Part shown: one piece after another, positions 6,888 to 59,320 of the stretch
Numbering within the stretch: the stretch's first letter is position 1
Layout: the number at the start of each line of letters is the position of its first letter
Notes under the pieces: model-generated
What the model was told of the DNA's origin: nothing
The model's database searches: none
What the model saw: only the letters and a program-made list of their open reading frames with translations
From: a virus
Direction: 5' to 3' (one strand)
DNA: 64,000 nt
IMG/VR virus record: IMGVR_UViG_3300042514_000757
Span: 1-64,000 of that record
Made by a program: the position numbers and the translations under genes

Positions 6888-6916
6888 ATAGTACCTCATG
6901 AGGCGAGACCTGTCAA
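6888..6916 (-). promoter_or_regulatory. Host-type promoter
   Basis: TTGACA (6916-6911), 17 bases, TACTAT (6893-6888; TATATA overlaps it two bases further on). It reads into the basic/acidic pair at 6556-6853 and starts right after the end of the oxygenase island. Confidence 0.75.
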
Positions 6917-7440
6917 GCCCCCTGACCGAGCATTTTTCTTTTATCATATTTCCACTCAGAATGTGGACCATTTGCATCAACATACTGAAGGAATGCTTGA
7001 ACATGTCTATTACCTGTGAAAGGTTCTCTCCAATGTGGATATTCAATACCTTTATAGATGCATACATCACCTACATTTAGTTCATAAGATCTGATTTCAC
7101 CATCAACTTCAAAAAATATAGGCCAATCAGTTTCCTTTTCGAGGCAACAGGTAACTCCATACTCAGAACTAGGACGGTCTGTATGACGTTCTAGGACACT
7201 TTGGTTTCCATATATCCTTCCATATGAATATGTTGGATACAGAGTCATCTGGAGTTCTCTCTCCACCTTTGGGTGCATCCACAACAAAAGAGATTCTAGA
7301 AATATAGGACTGTAATATCCAAATGCATTTGCAATAGTTGGATCTGGTGGATTATTCAATAGTAATCTCAGCATTTCCATGTTGGTAGAAATATACTTGC
7401 ACATCTCTACTGGAATTGCATTTCTAATAACTTTAATCAT
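6913..7440 (-). CDS. 2-oxoglutarate/Fe(II)-dependent oxygenase (prolyl-4-hydroxylase-like)
   Basis: 175 residues. The iron triad is visible as H86-T-D88 (RHTDRP) and H136 (YPHWREP), with R145 as the likely 2-oxoglutarate anchor on the last strands. This is the arrangement of the prolyl-4-hydroxylase branch of double-stranded beta-helix oxygenases. Such enzymes use O2 and 2-oxoglutarate to hydroxylate a protein, nucleic acid or small molecule; the substrate cannot be read from the sequence. Last gene of the island, coupled by ATGA to the next oxygenase upstream. The host-type promoter downstream begins at its end, so its transcript is separate from the early cluster. Confidence 0.8.
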   Translation of the reverse strand: MIKVIRNAIPVEMCKYISTNMEMLRLLLNNPPDPTIANAFGYYSPIFLESLLLWMHPKVERELQMTLYPTYSYGRIYGNQSVLERHTDRPSSEYGVTCCLEKETDWPIFFEVDGEIRSYELNVGDVCIYKGIEYPHWREPFTGNRHVQAFLQYVDANGPHSEWKYDKRKMLGQGA

Positions 7441-8030
7441 AGACTTGATAAATTCATGTTAATGACACAGCGATACGGTTGTGTTTTCGTATAAGAACTC
7501 GAATGGTAATAATTTCCTGGGAAAAGAAGAAGTCTACCTTTTTTTGGTGCAACTCTCTGCTTAATTGTCCACTCATTTCGTTTTAAGTAATATTCATCCC
7601 TCTCAATCGTAGGAATATCCAACTTCTGATCGAAAATTACAGTATCACCATCACAGTCATTCACATAATATAGTGCAACATAATGTTTACTGTAATTATC
7701 AACATGAGGCATATGATAATCCATTGTTGAATCTGGATTGCCAAGTACAAAATTGAACCTCATTCTATCCAGGAAGTTGAAAGAAACTCCAGTCTTCTCA
7801 GTGATAGACAATACTAGAGGATAGATTGTGTTGAAGAAGTTAGAAATTGGTTTCTGCTCTTCATACAATTCATGAGTAAATCCATGAATATTCAGAGGTT
7901 GTTTCCCATATTCATAAGCAACAATATTTTTCCTAAAGTACCAGGGAAAAGTAGCACTATTAACAATGCTCAAAATGTGATTCTGATAATCTCTACTGAT
8001 GAAATCATCTATAACGATAATATCTTTCAT
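7437..8030 (-). CDS. 2-oxoglutarate/Fe(II)-dependent oxygenase
   Basis: 197 residues with a complete triad: H109-V-D111 and H176 (NYYHSSSY), and R187 on the final strand. Between them is the strand pattern of the jelly-roll core (VALYYVNDCDGDTVIF, about 118-133, and KGRLLLFPG, about 164-172). It resembles the protein at 8641-9207 (both have LYY-NDCDGDT), so the two are diverged paralogues. It overlaps both neighbours by 4 bases. Substrate unknown. Confidence 0.8.
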   Translation of the reverse strand: MKDIIVIDDFISRDYQNHILSIVNSATFPWYFRKNIVAYEYGKQPLNIHGFTHELYEEQKPISNFFNTIYPLVLSITEKTGVSFNFLDRMRFNFVLGNPDSTMDYHMPHVDNYSKHYVALYYVNDCDGDTVIFDQKLDIPTIERDEYYLKRNEWTIKQRVAPKKGRLLLFPGNYYHSSSYTKTQPYRCVINMNLSSL

Positions 8031-8644
8031 ATAGCATGTCCAAAAAACACTAGGGTTAATCTTGCAGTATCAATATCTTTACCAAAGAAATTATCTGCAC
8101 TGTGCCAAACTCTAGGATCGAAGATATTGCATCGATTGAATCTATTCTGAACTGTAATACTTGGAATCCATTGAGATCTATGATCTTTTCTGTATTGATC
8201 ATACTTCCTTCGGCCTTCAATGTCATCAGAGTTCACTTCTTCCATGAACATCTTAGAGTAATCATCACCATTAACATCCATTCTATCATTATAGAATGTA
8301 GTACCAGAATTAATTGGAGTTGGATCTGGATTTAAATAAACCATTCCAGCAACATTATACTTATCATCGTCAGTGTGAATCCACCCACTCCCATAAGTGT
8401 CATCAATAATTTGAAAAGAAGTCTGAAGAATAGAAAATGAATTCTTATCTGGGATATGATGAACTAACTTAGATGCAAAAGTATGAAAGAGAGTAATATC
8501 TACTTCATCTAGAAAATTACTTCTCAATCCAGGCCAATTTCCACGATCACCTTTAAAATATTCCTGCTGTAAAGCAAAATTCCTAACAAGAGATGGAGTT
8601 TCAAAGAAATTGTCAATTGTAATTAGTGGTAATCTATTTTTCAT
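8027..8644 (-). CDS. 2-oxoglutarate/Fe(II)-dependent oxygenase-like protein
   Basis: 205 residues. Likely ligands are H90-T-D92 (GWIHTDDD) and H181 (VWHSADNFFG), with R195 near the end (ARLTLVFF). The insert between strands (about residues 125-165) is longer than in its neighbours and strongly charged, so substrate access should differ. Coupled by ATGA on both sides within the island. Confidence 0.75.
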   Translation of the reverse strand: MKNRLPLITIDNFFETPSLVRNFALQQEYFKGDRGNWPGLRSNFLDEVDITLFHTFASKLVHHIPDKNSFSILQTSFQIIDDTYGSGWIHTDDDKYNVAGMVYLNPDPTPINSGTTFYNDRMDVNGDDYSKMFMEEVNSDDIEGRRKYDQYRKDHRSQWIPSITVQNRFNRCNIFDPRVWHSADNFFGKDIDTARLTLVFFGHAI

Positions 8645-9207
8645 TCTGTTACAAAATTAAAAGTAAGTACAAGTCTTCGAGAACACATTTTAGGGCAACC
8701 ACTTGCATGATAGTGCTTACCATCAAAACAAACAAATTTACCTTGTTCTGGTTTTATTCTTTGTTTGATAGTATATTTTTCATTTTGTTCAGTCTCATTG
8801 AAGATATAGGTATCTCCATCACAGTCATTGAGATAATAGAGTCCAACTTTATGCTGATACTGATAATCTACATGTGGATTATTGTAAGAATATGGTAAGT
8901 GTGGCATACTGTATACAGTATTCAGAAGAAATCCAAGTCTAACTCTCAGCAAATCTTTGAGAACCATATTCTCTCTATGTAAGAATTCAAGAAGAATTGG
9001 ATAATAAGAATTCAAATACTGATTAGATTGTCCTTCATTATACATCAAATTACAAAATCCCTGAGTATTCTTCTTACCCTCGGTGGTTCTTTCGTTTGTA
9101 ACTTCAGGAAGATAATGCCAATCAAATTCTCTAGACGTTGCTAGATCAAGTAAAAACTTCTGTTGAGATTTGGGAATAATGTCTTGAATTGTAATGATGT
9201 CATTCAT
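8641..9207 (-). CDS. 2-oxoglutarate/Fe(II)-dependent oxygenase
   Basis: 188 residues with H112-V-D114 and H167 (HYHASG) plus Arg at 177-178. Paralogue of the protein at 7437-8030: the order of motifs is the same and both carry NDCDGDT between the first and second ligands. Overlaps the cupin-like gene upstream by 8 bases and the next gene by 4. Substrate unknown. Confidence 0.8.
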   Translation of the reverse strand: MNDIITIQDIIPKSQQKFLLDLATSREFDWHYLPEVTNERTTEGKKNTQGFCNLMYNEGQSNQYLNSYYPILLEFLHRENMVLKDLLRVRLGFLLNTVYSMPHLPYSYNNPHVDYQYQHKVGLYYLNDCDGDTYIFNETEQNEKYTIKQRIKPEQGKFVCFDGKHYHASGCPKMCSRRLVLTFNFVTE

Positions 9208-9910
9208 AGTTTATCTTGTAATAATTACGATCTACAGACTGATTTGAAGTCGGTAACTTTTGCCAACATGGTATACTCATAGACAAACGTTTTCCTAAAG
9301 GAACTGCCCAATGATAAGCCCTAGAAGGAATATACAATCCATCCCCAGGTTTAAGAACAACTTCGGTTTCAACCTGTAGTTGATCTTCACTCAATGTGTG
9401 CTGTTGAGTTCCTGTCTTATATAGTGACGATATGCGATTCTTAAAGATCTTCCAATGAGTTTCACCTTCTACCTGAATTATGAAGTTGGAAGGATAATCA
9501 TCATGAATTTTAAATGACTTTGAATCCTCCAGACCACAATACACATGAATTGCAGTATCTATATCAAAGATTCGTTCAAAGACATTCAATAGATCATTCG
9601 TCTTCTGACTATAGAATCCATAGTTCATGATGATGAGAGTATTACCTGCATTGATTCCATCAGCAAGAAATCTTTTGTCCTGTACAAGTTTGTTACTAAT
9701 CCAGGCCTTCTGCTGTGCAGGAATATTGATCTTGTTTGAGAACTTATCAATCATCTCAAAGTCAAACAGATGAGGATTGTTCACACAGGTCTCAACATCT
9801 TGCCAAGAAAGATAGTCTTCTGGATTGTCTAGAAGGTTTTCAAAGTAATGAGATCTATCATTCACAATCAGATTAGTCTCATTTAAAATTCTTTGTCCGA
9901 TGTTATACAT
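9200..9910 (-). CDS. JmjC/cupin-8-like 2-oxoglutarate oxygenase
   Basis: Start taken at 9910 (MYNIGQRILN, 236 aa), which overlaps the upstream stop by 8 bases; a 256-residue reading is possible. H136-D-D138 (KIHDDY) and H200 (AYHWAVP) sit in a cupin fold (VEGETHWKIF, then KPGDGLYIPSRAYH). This is the layout of the JmjC-type ribosomal and protein hydroxylases rather than of its prolyl-hydroxylase-like neighbours. A protein substrate is therefore a reasonable family-level guess. It is the only member of this branch in the island. Confidence 0.75.
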   Translation of the reverse strand: MYNIGQRILNETNLIVNDRSHYFENLLDNPEDYLSWQDVETCVNNPHLFDFEMIDKFSNKINIPAQQKAWISNKLVQDKRFLADGINAGNTLIIMNYGFYSQKTNDLLNVFERIFDIDTAIHVYCGLEDSKSFKIHDDYPSNFIIQVEGETHWKIFKNRISSLYKTGTQQHTLSEDQLQVETEVVLKPGDGLYIPSRAYHWAVPLGKRLSMSIPCWQKLPTSNQSVDRNYYKINYE

Positions 9911-10487
9911 TGTACTTGATTGCAATGTTGAATGAAATCGAGATTCTCTCTTCTTCCGTTTCGTTTTCATCTACGGAGTGTGGAACATAAGATGGAAATA
10001 GAATCAATCTACCAACCTTTGGAGGATACTTACATACGCTTCCACTGATAGGTGTATAGTTAGCAACTCTAGATGCTGAAGTTACAATGAAATCTTCCTG
10101 AAAGTTCTTGTAGAACACAATCTGAGGACTATCATCATTGCACTTCACATAATAGACACCAGATACAAATGACCCATGGTGAATGTGAGTCTTGTTTGAA
10201 TTGTTCTTTTGATTGATATTCACCCACATATTACCCATCTCTAGGGTTGTGCTTGCATCATATCCATAATCATGTAAGCACTGGTTTGCATTTACCATGA
10301 TGTAGTTATACAGTTCTGGTAGATCTTTAGGATTAATATCGTTAGATTGCCAACCCCCAAGATTACTAATGCTTCTACCAGCAGGATCTTTCTCTCTAGC
10401 AGTATAACAATACTGTAATATGGTTTTGTTATCAATTCCAGTGTCAGTCCACCACACTGGAGTAGGGAAGTAGTAATCTAGATTCAT
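9903..10487 (-). CDS. Putative 2OG-Fe(II) oxygenase (TIGR02466-like)
   Basis: 194 residues. The pattern THIHHGSFVSGVYYV (about 100-114), KVGRLILFPSYVPHSV (157-172) and ERISISFNI (180-188) matches from memory the family of phage and marine-bacterial putative oxygenases called 2OG-FeII_Oxy_5. Likely ligands are H101 or H103 and H170, with R181 for 2-oxoglutarate. It is a relative of the protein at 11804-12403. Coupled by ATGA to 10484. Confidence 0.75.
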   Translation of the reverse strand: MNLDYYFPTPVWWTDTGIDNKTILQYCYTAREKDPAGRSISNLGGWQSNDINPKDLPELYNYIMVNANQCLHDYGYDASTTLEMGNMWVNINQKNNSNKTHIHHGSFVSGVYYVKCNDDSPQIVFYKNFQEDFIVTSASRVANYTPISGSVCKYPPKVGRLILFPSYVPHSVDENETEEERISISFNIAIKYNV

Positions 10488-11023
10488 AAGACTATGGGGA
10501 TAAAACTAAAGTTTTCACTAATCATGTTAGAAGTTTGGAGATCAAATCCTAGGGTAATTCTTTCGTCATCAAAGTCTTCATCTACTCTAACGTGATGATA
10601 TCTGAATCCAGGCCCAATATAAATCTGACCTGGTTGATTCTGTATCTCATACATTATATTACCATTATGCGAATCTGTAAAGACCGTGGTTGTTTTGTGA
10701 TCAGTGATACTTATATATCCATGAATTGGAAAGTCATGACTATGTGATTGCAATACTTGATCCTTAGTGTGTAGGTTAATCCAACTCTGCAACCACAACT
10801 GATCATGAGTAGTTGTATAATCTCGAATACATCTCAATAACTCTGTATAAAGTTTGTACACATGTTGATTACATGATGCAATACTAAAGAAATTGTACAT
10901 GTAGTAATAATCTGTAGAGTTATTCCTACCAAAGATATGATGAAATTTGTTGTTGGATAACTTGATGTAGTCTGTGAGTTCTTTTACTTCGATATCAATT
11001 TTATACGTTTTGTAGTCATTCAT
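10484..11023 (-). CDS. Putative 2-oxoglutarate oxygenase-like protein
   Basis: Start at 11023 (MNDYKTYKID, 179 aa), which overlaps the upstream TGA as ATGA. The region SHSHDFPIHGYISI (about 93-106), then PGQIYIGPGFRYHHV (131-145) and ERITLGF (154-160), has the same order as in the 2OG-FeII_Oxy_5 proteins beside it. The similarity is weaker, so enzymatic activity is less certain. Candidate ligands are H94/H96, D97, H143/H144 and R155. Confidence 0.65.
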   Translation of the reverse strand: MNDYKTYKIDIEVKELTDYIKLSNNKFHHIFGRNNSTDYYYMYNFFSIASCNQHVYKLYTELLRCIRDYTTTHDQLWLQSWINLHTKDQVLQSHSHDFPIHGYISITDHKTTTVFTDSHNGNIMYEIQNQPGQIYIGPGFRYHHVRVDEDFDDERITLGFDLQTSNMISENFSFIPIVL

Positions 11024-11802
11024 ATCATAGGAGTGTAAGAGATAGCATATGTGTGAGACCACCTGAAGTCCACAGAAGAATCAATGTATGGTGAATGAGG
11101 AGTATGAGAATTGTATAGAGTCATCTTAGATTGAATACTAGGTGCAATTCCAACAGGTTCAAATCCCCAATATTCATACTCATCTTGACTCATATTCTTC
11201 CACTCAGAAAGTCTCTTCCTATCAAGAAAAAGTTCCTTACATTCATTGAATCTTGGATGAGATTCGTGTACCTGAAAGTCAAAGTACATTTTATTATCAT
11301 CACCTCTATAAGTTTTGCCCTTATATTCATATAGAGATGTTCCAGAAGTACCTTCTTTATGATCAGAAAACCAAAAATTTGCAACTACACCACAAGGAAA
11401 ATCCATATGAGGTAATCTAAAGTATTCGAGTGGTTTTGATTTCTCCCTAAAGTATACATTTCCCCACTCACTAAATCTCATATCAAAGTGAGGAGGAAAC
11501 TGAGGTTTGAAATAGGTTTTGATTAATATTAATATTCCCCTACACATCCATTCGGGTAAATGAATAGCCTCAAATGGGTTTGCTTCTTTACACTGTTGGT
11601 TGTTGTGCGTTTTGATAATAGGGAAGCAAGATGCCAATTCTTTATACATTTCAAATCCATTATCCAAGAATGGATTATCTGCTATCCAATATCCTACAGT
11701 GTCAGTTAATTTAATGTATTGGATATTCCATTCATCATACTTTTTGACTTTAATTACGTCGTCAAATTCATTTGCATCTGGATAACAATATCTAAAATTC
11801 AT
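11020..11802 (-). CDS. Putative oxygenase-like protein (260 aa)
   Basis: The longest of the jelly-roll-like proteins in the island. RLPHMDFPCGVVANFWFS (about 129-146) gives a possible H132-x-D134 pair on the first strand, and YNSHTPHSPYI near residue 235 supplies the distal His. A long charged middle (about 155-215) separates them. I place it with the 2-oxoglutarate oxygenases because of this order and its neighbours; a non-catalytic binding protein with the same fold is the alternative. Confidence 0.6.
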   Translation of the reverse strand: MNFRYCYPDANEFDDVIKVKKYDEWNIQYIKLTDTVGYWIADNPFLDNGFEMYKELASCFPIIKTHNNQQCKEANPFEAIHLPEWMCRGILILIKTYFKPQFPPHFDMRFSEWGNVYFREKSKPLEYFRLPHMDFPCGVVANFWFSDHKEGTSGTSLYEYKGKTYRGDDNKMYFDFQVHESHPRFNECKELFLDRKRLSEWKNMSQDEYEYWGFEPVGIAPSIQSKMTLYNSHTPHSPYIDSSVDFRWSHTYAISYTPMI

Positions 11803-11803
11803 T

Positions 11804-12403
11804 TCATGTTCCCTTTATGTTATAAGTAAGAACTATTCTTTCTTCATCAGTAGAATTCTCTTGTGTCCTATGATTAATCCATGGAGGAAAGATAAGAACG
11901 TCATTTGTAGTAACTTCCAATTCTCTCCACAATTGCTTCTCTGGATTGAATGGTAGTCCAAGTTTATGGTACTCTAAAGGATCTCTAAACTCAATATTAC
12001 CAGATCCTTCTGGACACTTCAGGTAAGCAGAAACAACCATGTCAGACATATTATGAACATGTTCGACGGTTTTTCCTGTTCTTCTGTGAACATTAATCCA
12101 TGACTTGGTGATGATACTATTGGAAGATAAAAGTTGATTCATCTCCCAAATATATGCAATTCTAGATACCAACCATTTGTGATAATCATTTAAGAGTGGA
12201 GAGTTATGAGGTTCTAACTCGTTATCATAAACTCCAACTCTTGCTGTGGATATTGCATCACCAGTTTCTAATAGACTAGACTCTGGTGATACAGACCAAT
12301 GAGTTCGCAGAGACTCAATCAGAGGATTAAGTTTATCTAAATCAAACTCGTATTTAAATTTCCAAATCAAAGGTGGCCATAAATGTATTGGTGTTCCATC
12401 CAT
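11804..12403 (-). CDS. Putative 2OG-Fe(II) oxygenase (TIGR02466-like)
   Basis: 199 residues. KTVEHVHNMSDMVVSAYLK (about 111-129), DVLIFPPWINHRT (168-180) and ERIVLTYNI (188-196) match the 2OG-FeII_Oxy_5 pattern, with H115 or H117 and H178 as metal ligands and R189 for 2-oxoglutarate. It is a relative of the protein at 9903-10487. Only 1 base separates it from 11802 and 3 from the coiled-coil gene upstream, so it is part of one transcript. Confidence 0.75.
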   Translation of the reverse strand: MDGTPIHLWPPLIWKFKYEFDLDKLNPLIESLRTHWSVSPESSLLETGDAISTARVGVYDNELEPHNSPLLNDYHKWLVSRIAYIWEMNQLLSSNSIITKSWINVHRRTGKTVEHVHNMSDMVVSAYLKCPEGSGNIEFRDPLEYHKLGLPFNPEKQLWRELEVTTNDVLIFPPWINHRTQENSTDEERIVLTYNIKGT

Positions 12404-12406
12404 AAA

Positions 12407-12628
12407 TCAAGAAATTCCACACTCCTCTTTTGCTAATTCCAGACCTTCAATAGCACCTTGAAGTTTAATGATTAGTTCATACATCTCTTGACGCTTTTGA
12501 AAGTCAATTGTAGTAATACCATAAGGATTTAGTTTGGTATCAGCAAATTCTACCTCAAGTTTTTCTTTATCTTCAATTGCCATTTGAATTTGACCTTTAA
12601 AATTATCAATCAGTTCATCAATAGTCAT
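12407..12628 (-). CDS. Small coiled-coil protein (73 aa)
   Basis: A charged amphipathic helix protein (MTIDELIDNFKGQIQMAIED) with heptad-like spacing and no catalytic motif. It sits between the oxygenases and the DUF6065-like gene and overlaps the latter by 4 bases. It may be a scaffold or an unrelated small phage gene. Confidence 0.7.
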   Translation of the reverse strand: MTIDELIDNFKGQIQMAIEDKEKLEVEFADTKLNPYGITTIDFQKRQEMYELIIKLQGAIEGLELAKEECGIS

Positions 12629-13398
12629 AATTTCCGATCTCCTGTTCTATAGCGTTTAAAAATTTCTGTCACTCTATTTATTCTAGATTGAACCGAATCA
12701 TATCTCATTGTATTGCATCTATTTGCATAGACAAATGATTCCTCCATATCATACTCCACTTGTCCAGCACTGTCAATAATGGTCTCAAAGTTATTGAGGT
12801 TCAAATACTTCCTATTTACAGGTACGTACTGAACTAAAGGTGTTCCAGCCTTTACAAATGTTTCACCTTCAAGTACATGCCAAAAAAGTTGAACATTCAT
12901 AACATGTGCATATCTGGGGTCTAGAATTCCATATGCTGGAGTAAATCTAGATTCATTGTTATATGCAACTGGCATTTGTATGAATACAATATCATCAGAT
13001 GCTTTCACTCTCCATGGAGTCTCAACTTTAACAATTTGCTTAAGAGTATTATCTGGATTATCTAATAGTGGTTCAACTTGCTTTTCATCATGCTTATCAA
13101 TATACCCATACATACCACGTTTGAATAGGTATGGTGTTTCCCAAGTAAAACTAGATCCATCACCATTGGTAGTGATAGTAAAGTCTGCAGGAGCAACTAA
13201 TACGTAACCAGCATGAGCAAGATTAGTGATTCCTGGGCAATTTGAAGATGACATGAAACCAGAGAAAGGACATTTCTTTTTCCTTACTTCTGGTTCCATC
13301 CATTTCCTTCTAATTGAATGTGATGTAATGATTGGGTATAAGTCAGTCACTCCAGGTTCTAGTGAATAGAACCTGATCCAACTCTTTTTTCTAAACAT
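12625..13398 (-). CDS. DUF6065-like protein (257 aa)
   Basis: The order of features R-RKWM (about 30-34), CPG-TNLAHAGYVLVAPADF (about 54-73), VETPWRVKA (125-133) and a closing GETFVKAGTPLVQYVPV (about 178-194) resembles, from memory, the DUF6065 family, whose function is unknown. The match is by pattern and not certain. It lies between the halogenase and the oxygenases, 27 bases after the halogenase stop. A profile search would decide. Confidence 0.6.
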   Translation of the reverse strand: MFRKKSWIRFYSLEPGVTDLYPIITSHSIRRKWMEPEVRKKKCPFSGFMSSSNCPGITNLAHAGYVLVAPADFTITTNGDGSSFTWETPYLFKRGMYGYIDKHDEKQVEPLLDNPDNTLKQIVKVETPWRVKASDDIVFIQMPVAYNNESRFTPAYGILDPRYAHVMNVQLFWHVLEGETFVKAGTPLVQYVPVNRKYLNLNNFETIIDSAGQVEYDMEESFVYANRCNTMRYDSVQSRINRVTEIFKRYRTGDRKL

Positions 13399-13425
13399 AA
13401 TTTATCTACCTTTATTCAGATTATA

Positions 13426-15030
13426 TCATGCATCAACGTGTTCGTCAACCCCATCGTAAATATTATCTCGGAGAAACTCATAGTGAGAAGGTAATGTTTG
13501 AACATACTCAACAATATGATCTCTATATTGTTCATATTTTCGCTTGGAGTCTTCAATCCTATCTAAAGGCCATCCATTACTTTCATAGATTTGCTCAACT
13601 TGCCTCTTATACGAAAGTGGTTTCATTCCCATTCCAGCAGCAATATAATTTGTACCACTGGTTCTAGTCTCCCAGTAATTATTCTGAAGTGATCCTGCAA
13701 GGAAACTTTGATATGATGCTTGATGATTCACAAATACGTTCATCATATCTGGATTGTATTCATTAATGTTTGTTGCCCATCTCCAGTATGGAGTATCATC
13801 TCTCATAGAGAACGCATAGTGCATAGAAACAAAATCCACAAATCCAGTCAATTCATGATCAACAGCAAAGTTGTATCCATCAATTTCAGATCTGGTTACT
13901 CTACCCTCTCTACGATTGATAAGATCTACCAGTTTAATCACATTTTCATGAGTTGTGAGCAGTCCTGTAGATTCTAAAGGTTCTACGAATCCATAGGACA
14001 ATCCAATTCCAACAACGTTTCTAACCCATGCACGTTCTCTCTTTCCATGACGAATATTAATATGGAACATTTCTGCTTCTTCTGCTCTCTTTGGATCAGT
14101 TTTTGCTAAATGCTCTCTGAATTCTTTTTGTGCATCCTCTTTAGATGTAAAGCGAGATGAGTAAACATATCCCGTTCCAATACGATTCCAGAGAGGAATA
14201 TTCCAAACCCATCCATTGTCTAGTGCATGACAATCGGTAACATTGTGCATTTCATTTTCCCTATCAATATAGGGGATTCTGCAAGCCCATGCACTATCGT
14301 TTGCAAGTTTCTTACTGAAAGGTCTGAAAATAGAACCCATATACCCCTCAAGGAGCATGGATTTAAATCCAGTACAATCAATATAAAGATCTGCACAAAT
14401 TGCAGTCTCTTCATCAAGAACTAGATATTTGATTGATTGATCTTTGTTTGGTTCATATCCAGTAATGTTACCAACAATATGTTGAACTCCATTAGGAATA
14501 CAAATATTTTCCTTTAACCACTTACCAAATAGTTCCGCATCCATGTGGTATGCAGTATCATATTTAAAACTAAAGTTTCTAATTTTATTGTCTTTATTTC
14601 TGGTCTGTTTGTTGTACTTGGCCAAGAAGGTATTGGCATTATAGAACTCAGCAAAAGTATCTGGAGTATAACTCTCATCAAAGAGAGCAATTTCTGCCCA
14701 AGTATTCAGACCATTATGCTTATCGGTGAAATCAAACTCTGCACCAAAAGGATATTCAAAATGACTTCCATCATTTTCACGGAAGTTAGTAAATCGAATA
14801 GAATTTTTGTAAGTTGCATTACATGCCTTCATCCAATCTTCATCCTTAATATCCAAAAGATCTAAGAATCGATTGATATGACCAAGAGTAGATTCTCCCA
14901 CGCCAACTGTTTTGACATTGGGAGATTCAACTAAAGCAATTTCCAAAAATGGGCACAGTTTACTAAGTGCTGCAGCAGTCATCCATCCAGAAGAACCACC
15001 ACCAACAATTACGACGCTTTCAATTTTCAT
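13426..15030 (-). CDS. prnA: Flavin-dependent (tryptophan-type) halogenase
   Basis: 534 residues and apparently complete. VVIVGGGSSGWMTA (7-20) is the FAD-binding GxGxxG motif. WVWNIP (274-279) is the halogenase WxWxIP signature. K75 (ATYKNS) aligns with the catalytic lysine that carries the chloramine/HOCl intermediate in PrnA, and GFVEPLESTG (about 347-356) holds the glutamate-serine pair by the active site. These enzymes use FADH2, O2 and halide to halogenate an indole or phenol ring; no flavin reductase is visible in this window, so a host one would be needed. The substrate could be free tryptophan, another small molecule or a protein side chain. It heads the oxygenase chain, 39 bases after a 163-residue gene that has a late promoter. 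Confidence 0.9.
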   Translation of the reverse strand: MKIESVVIVGGGSSGWMTAAALSKLCPFLEIALVESPNVKTVGVGESTLGHINRFLDLLDIKDEDWMKACNATYKNSIRFTNFRENDGSHFEYPFGAEFDFTDKHNGLNTWAEIALFDESYTPDTFAEFYNANTFLAKYNKQTRNKDNKIRNFSFKYDTAYHMDAELFGKWLKENICIPNGVQHIVGNITGYEPNKDQSIKYLVLDEETAICADLYIDCTGFKSMLLEGYMGSIFRPFSKKLANDSAWACRIPYIDRENEMHNVTDCHALDNGWVWNIPLWNRIGTGYVYSSRFTSKEDAQKEFREHLAKTDPKRAEEAEMFHINIRHGKRERAWVRNVVGIGLSYGFVEPLESTGLLTTHENVIKLVDLINRREGRVTRSEIDGYNFAVDHELTGFVDFVSMHYAFSMRDDTPYWRWATNINEYNPDMMNVFVNHQASYQSFLAGSLQNNYWETRTSGTNYIAAGMGMKPLSYKRQVEQIYESNGWPLDRIEDSKRKYEQYRDHIVEYVQTLPSHYEFLRDNIYDGVDEHVDA

Positions 15031-15585: not shown

Positions 15586-15593
15586 TATTTATA
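15586..15593 (-). promoter_or_regulatory. T4-type late promoter
   Basis: TATAAATA on the minus strand, about 25 bases before the start of the 163-residue gene. It is the nearest promoter upstream of the halogenase and the whole oxygenase island, which follow without a visible terminator. Confidence 0.75.
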
Positions 15594-16392
15594 TGTAATG
15601 TGTTACAACCACAAGTCCAGGTCTTCCATTAGATCCTCTGTGGCCATGATAGTGTGCCCCTGATCCACCAGATCCTGGTGCAGAGTGAGACTGGTGGTTA
15701 TGACTAAAGTTACCACCTTGAGGGTGTCCAGCAGCAACGGCGCCGCCGTGATGAGAAGTCCCACCAAGATTAGCACCTCTACCATGATGTGAGTCTCCGC
15801 CTCCACCATAAATGTTTAGATCTCCACCAGATCCAACTCCAGCAAGACCACCAGAGTGTTGGTTATTACGATTGGCACCGAAACCACCAGAAGCAGAGCA
15901 ATAAGATCCAAATGATGAAGCACCACCATTATCTCCTGCGTTTGCATAGTAGGTACCATTCACTTCTCCAGAAACAGTTACTGGAACCGAAGAAATGGAT
16001 TGCACATTAATAATTCTTTCAGAATATCCTCCAGCACCTCCACATTCACCATGGCCAGATCCTCCTCCTCCACCACCTTGAACCTTTACGTGAATAAAAC
16101 GAATATTTCCAGGTTTTGTCCAAGTACCAGACGAAGTGAATACCTGAGTGCTTAGAATATTACCAGTAGATCCCAATGGTTGCCAAGATGCTGTAGATCC
16201 ACTGGTCTCTAACCATTTTCCAGAATTACCAGATTGGGATGGTAATGTAGAATTAGTAGTACCGCTAATTGTACCGTTAATAACCAAGTTACTAACTTGA
16301 AGTCTTCCTACAACAGACAAAGAACCAGAAACTAGATCAAATCCACTAGTTCCACTAAAATCTCTAATATTTGTAACTTTAATAGTACTCAT
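15589..16392 (-). CDS. Polyglycine tail-fibre adhesin, copy A (267 aa)
   Basis: The N-terminal third (about 1-95) is a fibre or attachment domain (MSTIKVTNIRDFSGTSGFDL...LVINGTISG). The C-terminal part from about 100 is a Gly/Ser/His-rich domain with VQGGGGGGSGHG, GAGGYSER and a conserved end RGSNGRPGLVVVTHYI. It is nearly identical to copy B (16400-17200) except at a few loops. This glycine-rich plan is shared with distal-tip receptor-binding adhesins such as gp38 of Salmonella phage S16, where hypervariable loops sit between polyglycine strands. Likely at the fibre tip, binding the host surface. Confidence 0.75.
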   Translation of the reverse strand: MSTIKVTNIRDFSGTSGFDLVSGSLSVVGRLQVSNLVINGTISGTTNSTLPSQSGNSGKWLETSGSTASWQPLGSTGNILSTQVFTSSGTWTKPGNIRFIHVKVQGGGGGGSGHGECGGAGGYSERIINVQSISSVPVTVSGEVNGTYYANAGDNGGASSFGSYCSASGGFGANRNNQHSGGLAGVGSGGDLNIYGGGGDSHHGRGANLGGTSHHGGAVAAGHPQGGNFSHNHQSHSAPGSGGSGAHYHGHRGSNGRPGLVVVTHYI

Positions 16393-16399
16393 TTGTTTA

Positions 16400-17200
16400 T
16401 CACTTGAAATGTGTTACGACAACTAATCCAGGTCTTCCATTAGATCCTCTATGACCAGAGAAATATCCACCAGATCCACCAGATCCTGGTGCAGAGTGAG
16501 ACTGGTGGTTATGACTAAAGTTACCACCTTGAGGGTGTCCAGCAGCAACAGCACCACCAAAGTGTGATGCACCACCAACAGAAGAATAGTTGTGGTGTGA
16601 TTGTCCACCACCACCATAAATGTTTAGATCTCCACCAGATCCAACTCCAGCAAGACCACCAGAGTGTTGGTTAGTTCTATTAGCACCAAGACCACCAGAT
16701 GCTGAACAGTAAGCTCCAAACGAGGAAGCGCCACCATTATCACCAGGACCAGAATAATAAGTACCATTGACTTCTCCAGCAACAGTTACTGCAACTGTGG
16801 AAACCGATTGTACGTCAATAACTCTCTCTGAGTAACCACCGGCTCCTCCACCTTCACCATGTCCAGATCCACCGCCGCCACCGCCTTGTACTTGAACTTT
16901 GATGAATCTTACACCAGTTGGTTTTGTCCAAGTACCAGATGAGGTGAATACCTGCATACTGGTAATATTGTCAGATGTTGGTTTTGTGATCCACTGTGGA
17001 TTTGTGCCATCAGTAGAAAGAATTCTACCAGCATTACCTGACTGTGAAGGGAGATACTGTTTATTGTTTCCACTAATAGTACCATTAATAACAAGGTTCG
17101 AAACTGTCAGAGTTCCGTTAGCAGTAACTGCACCAGAAGATAAACTAAATCCACCTGTATTACTTAGATCTTTAATTGCTGCAACTTTTAGGGTACTCAT
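16400..17200 (-). CDS. Polyglycine tail-fibre adhesin, copy B (266 aa)
   Basis: Tandem paralogue of the protein at 15589-16392. The glycine-rich half matches almost residue for residue, apart from short loops: YSGPGD versus YANAGD, QSHHNYSSVGGASHFGG versus DSHHGRGANLGGTSHHGG, and GYFSGH versus AHYHGH. The N-terminal part has diverged more, and this copy has its own late promoter (17223-17230). Two receptor-binding variants carried side by side could widen host range or form a hetero-oligomer. Confidence 0.75.
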   Translation of the reverse strand: MSTLKVAAIKDLSNTGGFSLSSGAVTANGTLTVSNLVINGTISGNNKQYLPSQSGNAGRILSTDGTNPQWITKPTSDNITSMQVFTSSGTWTKPTGVRFIKVQVQGGGGGGSGHGEGGGAGGYSERVIDVQSVSTVAVTVAGEVNGTYYSGPGDNGGASSFGAYCSASGGLGANRTNQHSGGLAGVGSGGDLNIYGGGGQSHHNYSSVGGASHFGGAVAAGHPQGGNFSHNHQSHSAPGSGGSGGYFSGHRGSNGRPGLVVVTHFK

Positions 17201-17260: not shown

Positions 17261-18157
17261 TTATGCTCTAGTGATGTAAATATATCCGCTGCCGTCACCA
17301 GAGGTATTGCCGCCAGTAGTATTTTGTGGATTAGATCCAGAATTAAATGATCCACCTCCAGCAGCATCATAACTCCAAGGTGAGGCACCGCCTCCAGAAT
17401 ATCCACCGCCAGCGCCAGCACCGTTGGTTCCACCACCACCGCCACCGCCACCGAATCCTCCGCGAGCATTAGCACCACCTACAGAACCATTAGTAAAAGA
17501 TTGACCAAACCACGATCCACTACCATTACCAGTTAATCCACCACCGCCGCCAGCATTACCATATCCGCTGCCGCCAGATCCTCCTGAACCACCTCCAGCC
17601 CAAGAAGTACTAAAACCATTCTGACCAGAGTTTCCTGCAGGACTACCACTTCCACTAAATCCAGAAGCAGATCCTCCTCCTCCACCACCAGCAATAATTA
17701 ATGGTGAATTATCAGTATAGCAGACATAAGTGCCTCCTCCACCACCAGCATCATAGTAATTATTTTCTCCGTTTTGCCCAACAACCATTTTCAATTGCGT
17801 TCCAGAAGATAGTGAAAATGTTCCAACCATCAATGCTCCCCATCCACCCCATCTACCCCAACCATTGCTATATCCACCCCTAGCTCCACCTACAGTAATT
17901 CTGTAAGATCCACTTGAAGGGACTATCCAATATTGATATCCAGAAATAACGTTATAGAATGAGATATTATTTTTCCAAGCATCAACACCTATTCCAGTAA
18001 GTCCATTTATACCTTGCGATAAACTTGGTCCAGTATTATATGCTTGTCCACCTGGAGTAAATCTAGCCTCGGTAAAAGCATAGCGAGATCCACCAGAACC
18101 TGATGACGGACCAACTGGAATAAGATTTGATTTAAAACCAGTAATAAATGGTGCCAT
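17261..18157 (-). CDS. Glycine-rich adhesin with ALK-type glycine-rich domain (298 aa)
   Basis: Start at 18157 (MAPFITGFKSNLIPVG); a longer reading to 18199 overlaps the upstream gene more and lacks support. From about residue 78 the order GSYRITVGGARGG, WGALMVGTFSLSSG, LKMVVGQNG, AGGGGGTYV and PLIIAGGGGGG follows the layout of the glycine-rich domain of animal ALK/LTK receptors and its bacterial and phage relatives, which pack polyglycine-II helices. The C-terminus (GDGSGYIYITRA) closes the fold. Most likely a fibre or tip protein. Confidence 0.7.
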   Translation of the reverse strand: MAPFITGFKSNLIPVGPSSGSGGSRYAFTEARFTPGGQAYNTGPSLSQGINGLTGIGVDAWKNNISFYNVISGYQYWIVPSSGSYRITVGGARGGYSNGWGRWGGWGALMVGTFSLSSGTQLKMVVGQNGENNYYDAGGGGGTYVCYTDNSPLIIAGGGGGGSASGFSGSGSPAGNSGQNGFSTSWAGGGSGGSGGSGYGNAGGGGGLTGNGSGSWFGQSFTNGSVGGANARGGFGGGGGGGGTNGAGAGGGYSGGGASPWSYDAAGGGSFNSGSNPQNTTGGNTSGDGSGYIYITRA

Positions 18158-18162
18158 AGTAA

Positions 18163-19098
18163 TTACGCAAACTCTGACATCTGTAGTAATGGAATCCAAC
18201 TGTTAGAAGTTCCACCACTTGAATCTGTATATTGAGTAACTCTCATCATAGAAACTCCAACCACAACTGTTCTATTTGCAGTTGCAGCAGGTGCTGATCC
18301 ACCACTCCATCTTGCAGTTCCAATGCTTGTACCATCTAACATAATTGTACCAGAAGGTCTATATGCAGTTGAACCATTCTGATATATAATCGTGAAACCA
18401 AATGCTCTGTTGGAGTCTACTCCACCAGTTCCAATACTTGTTTGAGGGAGACCTCTCAGGTTTATCATAAAATTGTTCTGTAGATTAGTGATATAAACGA
18501 TTCCACCGTCAAGATAGTCAATATTAACAACTGGAGAAGTATCAAAATCAGGTAATCTGTAAGATACCATCTTTTCTCTAATGGCACCAACATCAAATCG
18601 TGCTCCTACAGTATTTAAAATGTCATAAACATCTAAATCTTCGTAAGCAGCAACGTTCGAATCTTCACCAATAACATAGAAATTTGCACCATTTTCAATT
18701 GTTAGGGTATATCCACTAGCAATTTCTACTGGACCTGCACTATAAGCATTAGTAAACTGAGCACCACCGTTAGCAACTGGACCAATAGTAATGTTTTCAT
18801 CGATACTATTAGAGTTTGTTCTAATGTAAGAAGTATCTTTATTACCTACGTGAGGACCACCAGCACCAACAAGAGTCCATCCATCTAGACCCTGGCCGTT
18901 TGAGTTGCTGACATAAACCTCTACCTTATCTTCAGTTGTATTGAATCTAAGTGTACCGTAAGCAACACCAGTAGGACGTTGAGCAGTAGTACCAGTCGGT
19001 AACTGCAAAACACTATTAGTGTTTAAGAACTGTAGTGAGGAAATCAGAGCTTGAGTACTAGTACTAATCTGATTACCATTGATTTGCTGTAATGCCAT
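18163..19098 (-). CDS. Virion/tail-fibre protein (311 aa)
   Basis: An N-terminal segment with LPTGTTAQRPTGVAYGTLRF at about residues 34-53 is a motif common in phage fibre and structural proteins that carry a 'TTAQRP' linker. It is followed by Ser/Thr/Gly-rich beta repeats ending WIPLLQMSEFA. In the fibre block, 31 bases downstream of the 1229-residue gene, with a possible late promoter (19124-19132). Confidence 0.7.
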   Translation of the reverse strand: MALQQINGNQISTSTQALISSLQFLNTNSVLQLPTGTTAQRPTGVAYGTLRFNTTEDKVEVYVSNSNGQGLDGWTLVGAGGPHVGNKDTSYIRTNSNSIDENITIGPVANGGAQFTNAYSAGPVEIASGYTLTIENGANFYVIGEDSNVAAYEDLDVYDILNTVGARFDVGAIREKMVSYRLPDFDTSPVVNIDYLDGGIVYITNLQNNFMINLRGLPQTSIGTGGVDSNRAFGFTIIYQNGSTAYRPSGTIMLDGTSIGTARWSGGSAPAATANRTVVVGVSMMRVTQYTDSSGGTSNSWIPLLQMSEFA

Positions 19099-57083: not shown

Positions 57084-57704
57084 ATGGACTCAGCAGAAAG
57101 AAGACTTATTGACCTTTATAATCTCCTCGCTCAATACCAAAGAAATGGAGATTCAGATCTTGCTGGAAATATTCAGACAATACGTACTGAAATAACCCAG
57201 ATGTTAAATGCCCGTGCTGGTGGCAATGACAATATTAACATCGTTATAGATGGCGGAGAATGCCCCGATGAATGCCCACCAGGGCCACCAGGACCACCAG
57301 GAGAACAAGGTCCACCAGGACCACCAGGACCCCAAGGGGAACCAGGGGAGGGAACACCAGGACCACCAGGGGAGCAAGGTCCACCAGGACCGCAGGGACC
57401 ACCAGGAGAGTGCTCATGCAAATGCAAAAGCATCTTGGTTTCATCTGATTATACTGCTACTTGTGATGATTACTACATCGGTGTCAATAGTGACGGACCT
57501 GTTACTATTACGTTACCTTCAGAATGTACCGACTGTTGTGAGATCATTGTAAAGGCAGAGATGGGTCCGCCATTGGGAAATCGTAAAGTTACTGTAACTA
57601 CTGTTGATGGTAGTTACATTGATGGTAAAGACAAATATGTTATGGAAGTACCTTACCAATCGGTCAATGTATTTTGTCGTGGTGGAGATTGGTACATCAT
57701 CTAA
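57084..57704 (+). CDS. Collagen-like tail-fibre protein (206 aa)
   Basis: An N-terminal helical part (about 1-55), a Cys pair ([10 protein letters not shown], about 58-67), then about a dozen Gly-Pro-X triplets (about 67-108), interrupted once by GEGTP. A Cys-rich link (GECSCKCKS) follows, then a C-terminal beta domain ([20 protein letters not shown] to RGGDWYII) that is shared with the next protein. Collagen-like repeats form trimeric stalks in phage fibres. The Cys clusters on both sides of the triple helix could lock it. If proline residues are hydroxylated, the oxygenases at 6.9-12.4 kb are candidates. Confidence 0.8.
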
Positions 57705-57715
57705 CGGAGTAAACA

Positions 57716-58327
57716 ATGGCATACTTAGCACAACCCACATCAAAAACAGATTATGGAGTGGTTGGAGTTGGAGATTTCATTAATGTTTTTGATGGATTCA
57801 TTTCATTAGAACAAGATGTATCTCCTGACGCTTCGGTATCTTTCAATCAAGTTACTATTGATGGAGAGGTTGCTGTAACTTCAGTAACACCTTCTTCTGG
57901 TGATGGTATTAAATTAACTGATGTTGTTACTACAGGTAACGATACGTCGTTCACCATTTATAACACTGGTGTTCTTTCTTTAACTGCTGGTGATGGTATT
58001 AGTATCTCAGACAGTACTGGTTATATTACTATCTCTGCTTCTGGTGCTGATTTAATTTCCACTATTGGAGTTACTGGTTCTTATACCGCAACTGCCGATG
58101 ATGAATACATCGGTGTCTTTAGTGCATCCGCAGTTACAATCACACTTCCAGTTGGCGTTACTGGTCGTGTTTATATCATCAAAGATGAGTATGGTCAAGG
58201 ATCTGGAAAGATTACTATCAAACCATCTGGGACTGAAAAAATTGATAATAAAGCAGATTACATTATATCTGTACCTAATCAATCAGTATCCGTCGTATTT
58301 CGTGGCGGACAATGGAGAATCATCTAA
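57716..58327 (+). CDS. Fibre protein sharing C-terminal domain with the collagen-like protein (203 aa)
   Basis: The N-terminal and central parts are Ser/Thr/Gly beta repeats (GDGIKLTDVVTTGNDTSFTI, then SLTAGDGISI). The C-terminus (YTATADDEYIGVFSASAVTI, VSVVFRGGQWRII) is homologous to the last 85 residues of the collagen-like protein. Start after CGGAGTAAAC. Likely a fibre component using the same tip or trimerisation module. Confidence 0.75.
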   Translation: MAYLAQPTSKTDYGVVGVGDFINVFDGFISLEQDVSPDASVSFNQVTIDGEVAVTSVTPSSGDGIKLTDVVTTGNDTSFTIYNTGVLSLTAGDGISISDSTGYITISASGADLISTIGVTGSYTATADDEYIGVFSASAVTITLPVGVTGRVYIIKDEYGQGSGKITIKPSGTEKIDNKADYIISVPNQSVSVVFRGGQWRII

Positions 58328-58339
58328 TTTTATAAAACC

Positions 58340-58930
58340 ATGAACTTTAATATCAAACCATCTCTACCAGATGACAGAGATTACATTTATAGAAACGATA
58401 GCACTGAAGTTCTCAGAGAATCTGTAGACCTTCGTGAGTGGGATACTCTACCACAATCCAAAGAATTGATCGAAAACACATTCAATCAAGATGGAATATA
58501 TTTAAGAGATGGTCTGAAGTCACTAAAAAAATTAGGCAAAATTTCTTCCTATCAAAAATTAATTAGCATTTATTATATTACTGAAGTGTTGAATCACAAC
58601 AAACCAGTTGTATTCGGAATGGAAATTTATGATAGTTTTATGGATCTGAATGAGCGTATTTCTACTGTAAACTTTCCAGGAAGAAAAGAAAGAAGTATTG
58701 GTGGCCATGCTATGTGTATGGTTGGATATGATATGAGGAAAAGATTATTTTTAGCAAAAAATAATCTTGGAACTAAATGGGGAGACAACGGATACTGTTG
58801 GATTCCTTTTGATTACATTAGGCAGGAAGGATACGACATTTGGACTTTTGATATATCAAATCAAGCAGGAGAACCTAATGTACTACCACAGACCATACCC
58901 CTACTACCATCACAGAAGATATTGCTATGA
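58340..58930 (+). CDS. Papain-like (C1A) protein lacking the catalytic cysteine region (196 aa)
   Basis: IRDGLKSLKK-like RDGLKSLKKLG (about 57-67), KPVVFGMEIYDSFMDL (about 90-105), GGHAMCMVGYD (about 121-131) and KNNLGTKWGDNGYCWIPFDY (about 140-159) are the middle and C-terminal blocks of C1A peptidases, with the catalytic His (GGHA) and Asn (KNNLG). The N-terminal block with the catalytic Cys (usually ...GxCGSC-W or DQGxxGSC) is missing: DLREWDTLPQSKELIENTFN runs straight on. The reading frame is open, so it is a deletion rather than a frameshift. Probably inactive as a protease. Confidence 0.75.
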   Translation: MNFNIKPSLPDDRDYIYRNDSTEVLRESVDLREWDTLPQSKELIENTFNQDGIYLRDGLKSLKKLGKISSYQKLISIYYITEVLNHNKPVVFGMEIYDSFMDLNERISTVNFPGRKERSIGGHAMCMVGYDMRKRLFLAKNNLGTKWGDNGYCWIPFDYIRQEGYDIWTFDISNQAGEPNVLPQTIPLLPSQKILL

Positions 58931-59012
58931 CAACTATTATTGGGGTGGTTGCCATCCTTATTACAATAGATATTGGGATTATAACCCATATTATTCTTAC
59001 TATCCTTACTAA
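58878..59012 (+). CDS. Tyr-rich small protein, overlapping gene (44 aa)
   Basis: MYYHRPYPYYHHRRYCYDNY, then more of the same; about 40% Tyr with His, Arg and Pro. AGGAG lies 7 bases before the ATG, which is inside the C-terminal codons of the papain-like gene in another frame. Its composition resembles the start of the gene at 59027-59320, so the two probably belong together. Confidence 0.6.
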   Translation: MYYHRPYPYYHHRRYCYDNYYWGGCHPYYNRYWDYNPYYSYYPY

Positions 59013-59026
59013 GTAGGAGATTTAAA

Positions 59027-59320
59027 ATGCATTATTATAGACACAATAGGTATCATAGATACCCCTACTATAGGAGATATTATAGTCATTATCCTTACTA
59101 CTATAGAAGATATTATGACCCATATTATAGATACATGAATAATGCAATTGATAGTGATATCGTAAATATTGATGATGATATTGTCATCTATAGCAATACT
59201 CAAAGTAAGGTTGAAGTTTCAGAAGAACATAAACCAAAGGAAATCGTTATGGAAGTGAATGAAGAAGAGGAAGATGATGATATATCTAATATCGAACCCT
59301 CTCGTCTAATTCTTCTATAG
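59027..59320 (+). CDS. Tyr/His/Arg-rich protein with acidic tail (97 aa)
   Basis: MHYYRHNRYHRYPYYRRYYS and on to about residue 36 is a Tyr/Arg/His-rich block; the rest is acidic (about 40-97, NEEEEDDDISNIE). TAGGAG precedes the ATG. Such Tyr-rich blocks are seen in adhesive or cross-linked proteins, so a surface or structural role is possible. Ends before a bidirectional terminator. Confidence 0.7.
   Translation: MHYYRHNRYHRYPYYRRYYSHYPYYYRRYYDPYYRYMNNAIDSDIVNIDDDIVIYSNTQSKVEVSEEHKPKEIVMEVNEEEEDDDISNIEPSRLILL

Follow-up and report, generated by a model that had tools for sequence, protein, structure and literature searches.

A flavin-dependent halogenase and nine oxygenase-like genes behind the tail-fibre genes of a T4-like cyanophage: a candidate late cassette for modification of the fibre tip

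Results

The halogenase and oxygenase island

The stretch of DNA analysed here (the window, 64,000 nt) is part of an 83,782-base virus record of IMG/VR (IMGVR_UViG_3300042514_000757), the source of which is a T4-like phage of marine or estuarine cyanobacteria. An island of enzyme genes was confirmed on its minus strand at 6913-15030, directly behind genes for glycine-rich tail fibres. In the order of transcription the region comprises the fibres, P13, a flavin-dependent halogenase (FDH), P11, P10 and the oxygenase-like open reading frames (ORFs) P9 to P1, which run from 12403 down to 6913 (Table 1).

Table 1. Features of the island and of the adjoining fibre genes, in order of transcription (coordinates of the window).
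Feature	Position	Strand	Description
Third glycine-rich protein	17261-18199	-	Upstream of F2; glycine-rich on inspection, probable fibre component
F2 fibre	16400-17200	-	F1 paralogue with the same tip; PF21722 4.7e-8
F1 fibre	15589-16392	-	Tail-fibre protein rich in glycine and His; PF21722 Gly_rich_2, Pfam 5.4e-8; proposed substrate
F1 tip segment, GHPQGGNFSHNHQSHSAPG	15673-15729	-	His-rich, conserved, residues 222-240; contains an X-Pro-Gly site
Late-type promoter motif, TATAAATA	15586-15592	-	25-31 nt upstream of P13; position conserved
P13	15070-15561	-	163 aa, conserved, between fibre and FDH; in S-CREM1 'stress response protein', with a YorD note
FDH	13426-15030	-	Complete flavin-dependent halogenase, VirX1 type; Pfam Trp_halogenase 1.8e-106
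P11	12625-13398	-	DUF6065-like, possibly dUTPase-fold protein (weak evidence)
P10	12407-12628	-	Small protein, 73 aa; conserved between P11 and the oxygenases
P9	11804-12403	-	2OG-FeII_Oxy_5-type oxygenase; H115, H117, H178, R189 invariant; Pfam 4.8e-14
P8	11020-11802	-	Oxygenase; PHROG 1644, common to P3; H132, D134, H236, R247 invariant
P7	10484-11023	-	Oxy_5-like oxygenase, 179 aa (S-CREM1-supported start); H107, H109, H156 invariant, R168 0.98 (residues counted from the 192-aa ORF)
P6	9903-10487	-	2OG-FeII_Oxy_5-type oxygenase; H101, H103, H170, R181 invariant; Pfam 6e-26
P5	9200-9910	-	JmjC_2/cupin oxygenase; H156/D158/H220, R228; Pfam 2.2e-16
P4	8641-9207	-	Oxy_3-like oxygenase (weak match); H112, D114, H167, R178 invariant
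P3	8027-8644	-	DUF6445-type oxygenase-like; H90, D92, H181, R195; Pfam 7.4e-14
P2	7437-8030	-	Oxy_3/Oxy_5-like oxygenase (weak Oxy_3-type match); H109, D111, H176, R187
P1	6913-7440	-	Prolyl-4-hydroxylase-fold oxygenase; H86, D88, H136 invariant; model pLDDT 94

An earlier note on this DNA, drawn from the letters alone, had described eight consecutive oxygenases packed with 4-8 base overlaps. The consecutive run is real, whereas the count has to be raised to nine, that is, eight proteins of the 2-oxoglutarate (2OG) type and one JmjC/cupin protein, in agreement with the GenBank annotation of the collinear region of Synechococcus phage S-CREM1. Overlaps of 4 or 8 bp do join P1 to P8 when the starts supported by S-CREM1 are used (P5 9200-9910, P7 10484-11023), and one of 4 bp joins P10 and P11, whereas P8/P9 and P9/P10 are separated by gaps of 1-3 bp, P11 and FDH by 27 bp and FDH and P13 by 39 bp. 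Where the ratio of non-synonymous to synonymous substitution (dN/dS) against S-CREM1 could be computed, it lay at 0.028-0.092 in the oxygenases, P10, P11 and FDH; dS was saturated for P2 and P7. This range indicates strong purifying selection on the computable ORFs and hence maintenance of the enzymes. Outside the window, close to the contig end, there is a further 2OG-FeII_Oxy_3 gene (83373-83630, minus strand).

The halogenase is complete, as the earlier note had it, with GGGSSG at residues 10-15, WVWNIP at 274-279, and K75, E350 and E353, which do not vary across 121 sequences. Its best match by far in the PDB was VirX1 (6QGM; 1.6e-225), which scored 753 bits vs 253 bits for the next entry, and by sequence comparison it is closest to VirX1 and not to the Trp-5/6/7 halogenases. 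Only one FDH of the genome collections came near the phage type (57%, the next best being 33-37%); it lies on contig JABDFK010000005 of a deltaproteobacterial metagenome-assembled genome, possibly a phage contig inside that assembly, with no glycine-rich ORF or oxygenase close by.

Linkage of the halogenase to glycine-rich fibre genes

F1 matched 20 of 50,697 phage records, and FDH was present in all 20; P13 matched those same records and, partially, a Methylophilales phage. In IMG/VR, F1 retrieved 62 loci, and wherever downstream sequence was available (61/61) fibre, P13 and FDH followed one another in that order, with P11, P10 and oxygenases coming next where the sequence extended that far. 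Thus, among the phage records and the IMG/VR loci with downstream sequence, the F1-type fibre family was never found without FDH, an obligate co-occurrence.

For a survey centred on FDH, 159 phage loci, of which 119 were non-redundant, were scored for glycine-rich ORFs. A glycine-rich fibre gene, mostly of family PF21722, was located within 3 kb of FDH in 70 of the 119, while 34 loci had incomplete flanks. The density of such genes was 0.218/kb within 3 kb vs 0.026/kb at 3-10 kb, an 8-fold difference, and no such enrichment was seen at 79 bacterial FDHs (0.020 vs 0.019 per kb). Seven of ten sampled neighbours passed the PF21722 cut-off and one fell below it; four others tested also matched. 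Fibre searches started from the distant loci L058, L059, L076 and L083, intended to gauge the share of glycine-rich fibres accompanied by an FDH, each returned the locus itself or few loci.

The fibre gene of the 70 linked loci was upstream of FDH in the same orientation in 48 and convergent downstream in 20; in these 68 it is thus the tip-coding 3' end of the fibre gene that is turned towards the enzymes. On the FDH tree this orientation changed at least seven times with the closeness retained. Convergent loci such as L046, L055, L058, L059 and L060 cannot be explained by inheritance of one operon; the linkage is resistant to rearrangement. Oxygenase genes accompanied FDH in 97 of the 119 loci, where they were 2.7 times denser within 5 kb than at 5-10 kb and mostly on the FDH strand (425/484). 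No published account of the linkage of FDH to fibres was found in a search that covered mostly the open literature, and we regard its novelty as provisional.

A late-type promoter motif at a conserved position

The late motif that the earlier note had placed at 15586, upstream of the operon, is present. As the bare motif ATAAATA occurs 12 times in the window vs 20.6 expected by chance, bare counts were rejected as evidence, and a single occurrence proves nothing by itself. Its position is another matter: in counts over loci that are related to each other and were left unweighted, the 60 nt before P13 contained the motif in 20 of 31 islands vs 0.7 in shuffles, those before a halogenase ORF in 21 of 56 vs 3.1, and those before oxygenases P1-P9 in 1 of 305. 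An alignment around 15586 showed the motif to be conserved in S-CREM1, in Syn10 and on other contigs. This conserved position fits a predicted single late operon beginning at P13 or FDH. A sigma-70-like site in the gap between FDH and P11 (13448-13420, minus strand; 11/12, extended -10) was considered as an early promoter of the oxygenases and rejected, as it is not conserved in relatives.

The fibre tip

The proteins of the F family, whose S-CREM1 homologue of F1 carries the name 'collagen-like protein', end in tips of ~30% Gly and 6.1% His, the latter vs 2.2% in glycine-rich fibres at distant FDH loci. A segment [H/W]P[Q/N]GG-x-F-x-H-x-H is near-universal in these tips: [HWY]P[QN]GG was found in 128 of 143 unique fibres, and HxH[QEN] also in 128. 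The third glycine-rich protein gave no Pfam match. Nearly all islands bearing P8 have X-Pro-Gly at one or both of the conserved tip sites, and the scorable islands without P8 have none there, mostly AYG/KYG. In the fibre clade devoid of both P8 and P5 (L103-L150) the two tip prolines are mostly Tyr, and Trp per tip rises from 1.5 to ~4. Such a pattern is what a prolyl-hydroxylase target would predict; as it goes back to one event on the tree, we treat it as a lead only.

The oxygenases

Iron triads, which the earlier note had seen in most of the oxygenases, could be traced in all nine: the presumed ligands are 0.95-1.00 conserved when each protein is aligned with its relatives, and the active sites are to that extent intact. 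The pattern H-x-D...H with a distal Arg was found in P1, P2, P3, P4, P5 and P8, the distal Arg of P1 being uncertain. P6, P7 and P9 lack the carboxylate of H-x-D/E and have an invariant H-x-H instead; their metal site is therefore less certain, although P6 and P9 score above the PF13759 cut-off despite it and P7 has a sub-threshold match. P1 and P8 gave no Pfam match.

A structural comparison with known 2OG enzymes, which the earlier note had proposed for the whole set, was run for P1. The model (pLDDT 94.1) is a double-stranded beta-helix that matches prolyl-4-hydroxylase (P4H) structures (4iw3/4j25; E 2e-8 to 1e-7, TM ~0.71), the best PDB match being the Pseudomonas putida P4H solved with EF-Tu (2.4e-8); as modelled, P1 folds like the protein prolyl hydroxylases. 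For P5, sequence comparison placed two histidyl hydroxylases, NO66 and MINA, nearest among proteins of solved structure. Accordingly, the PHROG 2954 label 'ferrochelatase' was rejected for P1, which folds as a P4H, and so were the labels 'DNA endonuclease V' (PHROG 274; P2/P4) and 'minor coat protein' (PHROG 1644; P3/P8), as oxygenase ligands are seen in these proteins. The first two labels are also found in RefSeq cyanophage records.

P11 and the plus-strand cluster

P11 had been called DUF6065-like. This stands for the family, in which 4 of 36 relatives match DUF6065 (PF19541) and one matches dUTPase, and not for the window member, which has no Pfam match at E<=1. The top Foldseek matches of a P11 model were dUTPases and weak (best E 8e-4, TM by target 0.5-0.73). 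At five loci (L040, L041, L044, L047 and L064) P11-like genes are found in tandem, as 3-4 diverged paralogues next to FDHs and oxygenases, with no F-type fibre, which suggests hetero-oligomers.

Far from the island, a plus-strand cluster at 57084-59320 encodes a collagen-triplet protein (PF01391), a cysteine protease of the papain type (PF00112), a protein weakly matching a phage depolymerase C-terminus and a small Tyr/Arg-rich ORF. The earlier note had named the collagen triplets (57084-57704) and the Tyr-rich proteins as candidate substrates. The collagen match is real, but the protein occurs in no other phage record searched, though the island does, and both this protein and the Tyr-rich ORFs are encoded away from the island; we discarded the former as a general substrate and do not retain the latter.

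Discussion

The obligate co-occurrence of FDH with F-type fibres, together with a closeness to glycine-rich fibres that survives rearrangement, favours the fibre tip as the target of the operon. The earlier proposal of a tail-protein modification pathway thus gains strong indirect support with other substrates than those it named: F1 and F2 are the better candidates, and the protein encoded at 17261-18199 is probably another. We put the probability that the glycine- and His-rich tip is modified late by the enzymes of the operon at roughly 0.6. A protein target is also argued for by the prolyl-hydroxylase fold of the P1 model, by the likeness of P5 to histidyl hydroxylases and by the histidine content of the tips.

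We infer that the operon may act as a late protein-modification cassette on the phage's own fibre tip. After DNA replication, a late promoter before P13 would drive P13, the halogenase, P11, P10 and the nine Fe(II)/2OG oxygenases; FADH2, halide, Fe(II), 2OG and O2 would come from the host. The halogenase, which in VirX1 is a trimer with an open, lidless pocket, would halogenate aromatic side chains of the tip; Trp halogenases are closed by a helical lid that VirX1 lacks (PMC7948982), and a bulky substrate could therefore enter. The oxygenases would hydroxylate tip side chains, candidates being the X-Pro-Gly prolines and the His-rich H-x-H-x-x-H segment. Such modification would take place before the virus exits the cell and could tune adhesion, metal binding or stability.

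Several observations weigh against this interpretation. No modified residue has been observed, a published demonstration of chemistry on these targets was not found, and the virion proteome of S-CREM1 reports no modifications in the accessible part of that paper, where none were apparently searched for (PMC9964418). Of the FDH loci with complete flanks, 15 are devoid of a glycine-rich fibre gene within 3 kb. FDHs of other cyanophage clades sit in photosynthesis/metabolism regions away from fibres (in S-MbCM6 next to psbA; also in P-SSM2), and that of S-B64 lies among replication/recombination genes; the linkage claim is therefore limited to the VirX1-like clade and its phage relatives and does not extend to all phage FDHs. 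The covariation of P8 with the tip prolines is one single change on the tree, and cargo of any kind may tend to collect behind the fibres, which would make this region a general hotspot.

That last point belongs to the alternative we consider the least improbable of three, though still unlikely, namely that the oxygenases manipulate 2OG/nitrogen status, or serve DNA repair or DNA-base oxidation, and that FDH is unrelated cargo. Modulation of 2OG/NtcA has been suggested for cyanophage oxygenases, with DNA repair cited, in the accessible portion of Sullivan 2010, and the label 'DNA endonuclease V' and weak matches of 4 of 18 P1 relatives to the AlkB-type family PF13532 point the same way. Against these stand the window proteins themselves, which match no TET/JBP or AlkB family in Pfam at E<=1, the fact that one enzyme rather than nine would be enough to consume 2OG, and the persistence of FDH and oxygenases together, beside fibres, through inversions. 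A small-molecule pathway, in which the two kinds of enzyme build or decorate a halogenated metabolite (for example from free Trp to chlorotryptophan or a pyrrolnitrin-like protection of the infected host), appears improbable, slightly more so than the preceding alternative. It would agree with the family annotation 'tryptophan halogenase', with suggestions made for S-CREM1 and for cyanomyoviruses generally in the accessible literature, and with the many small aromatic substrates that VirX1 takes in vitro according to the available part of its description. However, among the operon ORFs neither Pfam nor PHROGs revealed genes for scaffold making (polyketide synthase, nonribosomal peptide synthetase, ribosomally synthesized and post-translationally modified peptide, amino-acid oxidase), ligation or transport, no pyrrolnitrin gene other than PrnA was seen in the operon, VirX1 is without the lid that encloses Trp, and the obligate linkage to fibre genes would be left unexplained.

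The same linkage bears on the proposal that host proteins (ribosomal proteins, EF-Tu or surface proteins) are altered to favour late infection, which gives no reason for a tight association with one fibre type. The closest structural match of P1, solved with EF-Tu, and the resemblance of P5 to the ribosomal oxygenases NO66/MINA speak in its favour, but a late position is late for host takeover and nine different enzymes would be involved; we give it the lowest standing of the three. Nothing found here favours a DNA-base or small-molecule target.

Modification of the fibre tip thus remains our preferred reading, and a bolder version of it can be formulated, on which we would place somewhat less than even odds. 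Tips would be doubly modified, by halogenation and multi-site hydroxylation, through a dedicated late fibre-linked cassette; this would be the native role of VirX1-type phage halogenases in many lineages, and the enzyme set would co-evolve with the tip, as where P8 is missing and Tyr, Phe or Trp replaces the Pro of X-Pro-Gly (one evolutionary event). We know of no description of halogenation and hydroxylation as post-translational chemistry on phage adhesins. In the literature examined, VirX1 has so far been characterised on unnatural substrates only, and the phage 2OG oxygenases have stood since 2010 as a list of 'auxiliary metabolic genes' without an explanation. Should the fibre prove to be the target, the roles of halogenase and oxygenases could be tested directly with virions of phages in culture, and enzymologists would gain natural peptides as substrates of a halogenase that is unusually permissive.

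Among known systems, large sets of oxygenases have been reported for S-SCSM1 (24 genes, with roles uninvestigated in the accessible text) and in Sullivan 2010. They share the superfamilies and the host group of the window, and differ in that no fibre-linked operon with FDH is described in what is accessible of these sources. At the level of single proteins, P1 is alike to the P. putida P4H and to PHD2 in fold and iron ligands at an identity of about 13-17%, and P5 shares the JmjC core of NO66/MINA, being short and without their regions beyond the matched core. The closest annotated relative of the window is the T4-like S-CREM1 (OP535465), a separate phage, in which the whole island (~8.2 kb) is collinear at 82% nucleotide identity, with nine oxygenases, FDH and P11 in both, so that the window island is a further member of an already described gene set. 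The accessible part of the S-CREM1 paper counts ten 2OG oxygenases along with PrnA, suggests antibiotic protection and views these as host-metabolism and antibiotic genes, with no link drawn to the fibres. VirX1 of cyanophage Syn10 (PDB 6QGM) is 61.5% identical to the window FDH over 99% of the protein, with the catalytic Lys and WxWxIP kept. Its available description concerns unnatural substrates in vitro, many small aromatics being accepted with the halide order I > Br > Cl, an iodide preference. The neighbours of VirX1 in Syn10 are the same as in the window, namely the fibres, P13, P11, P10 and the oxygenases.

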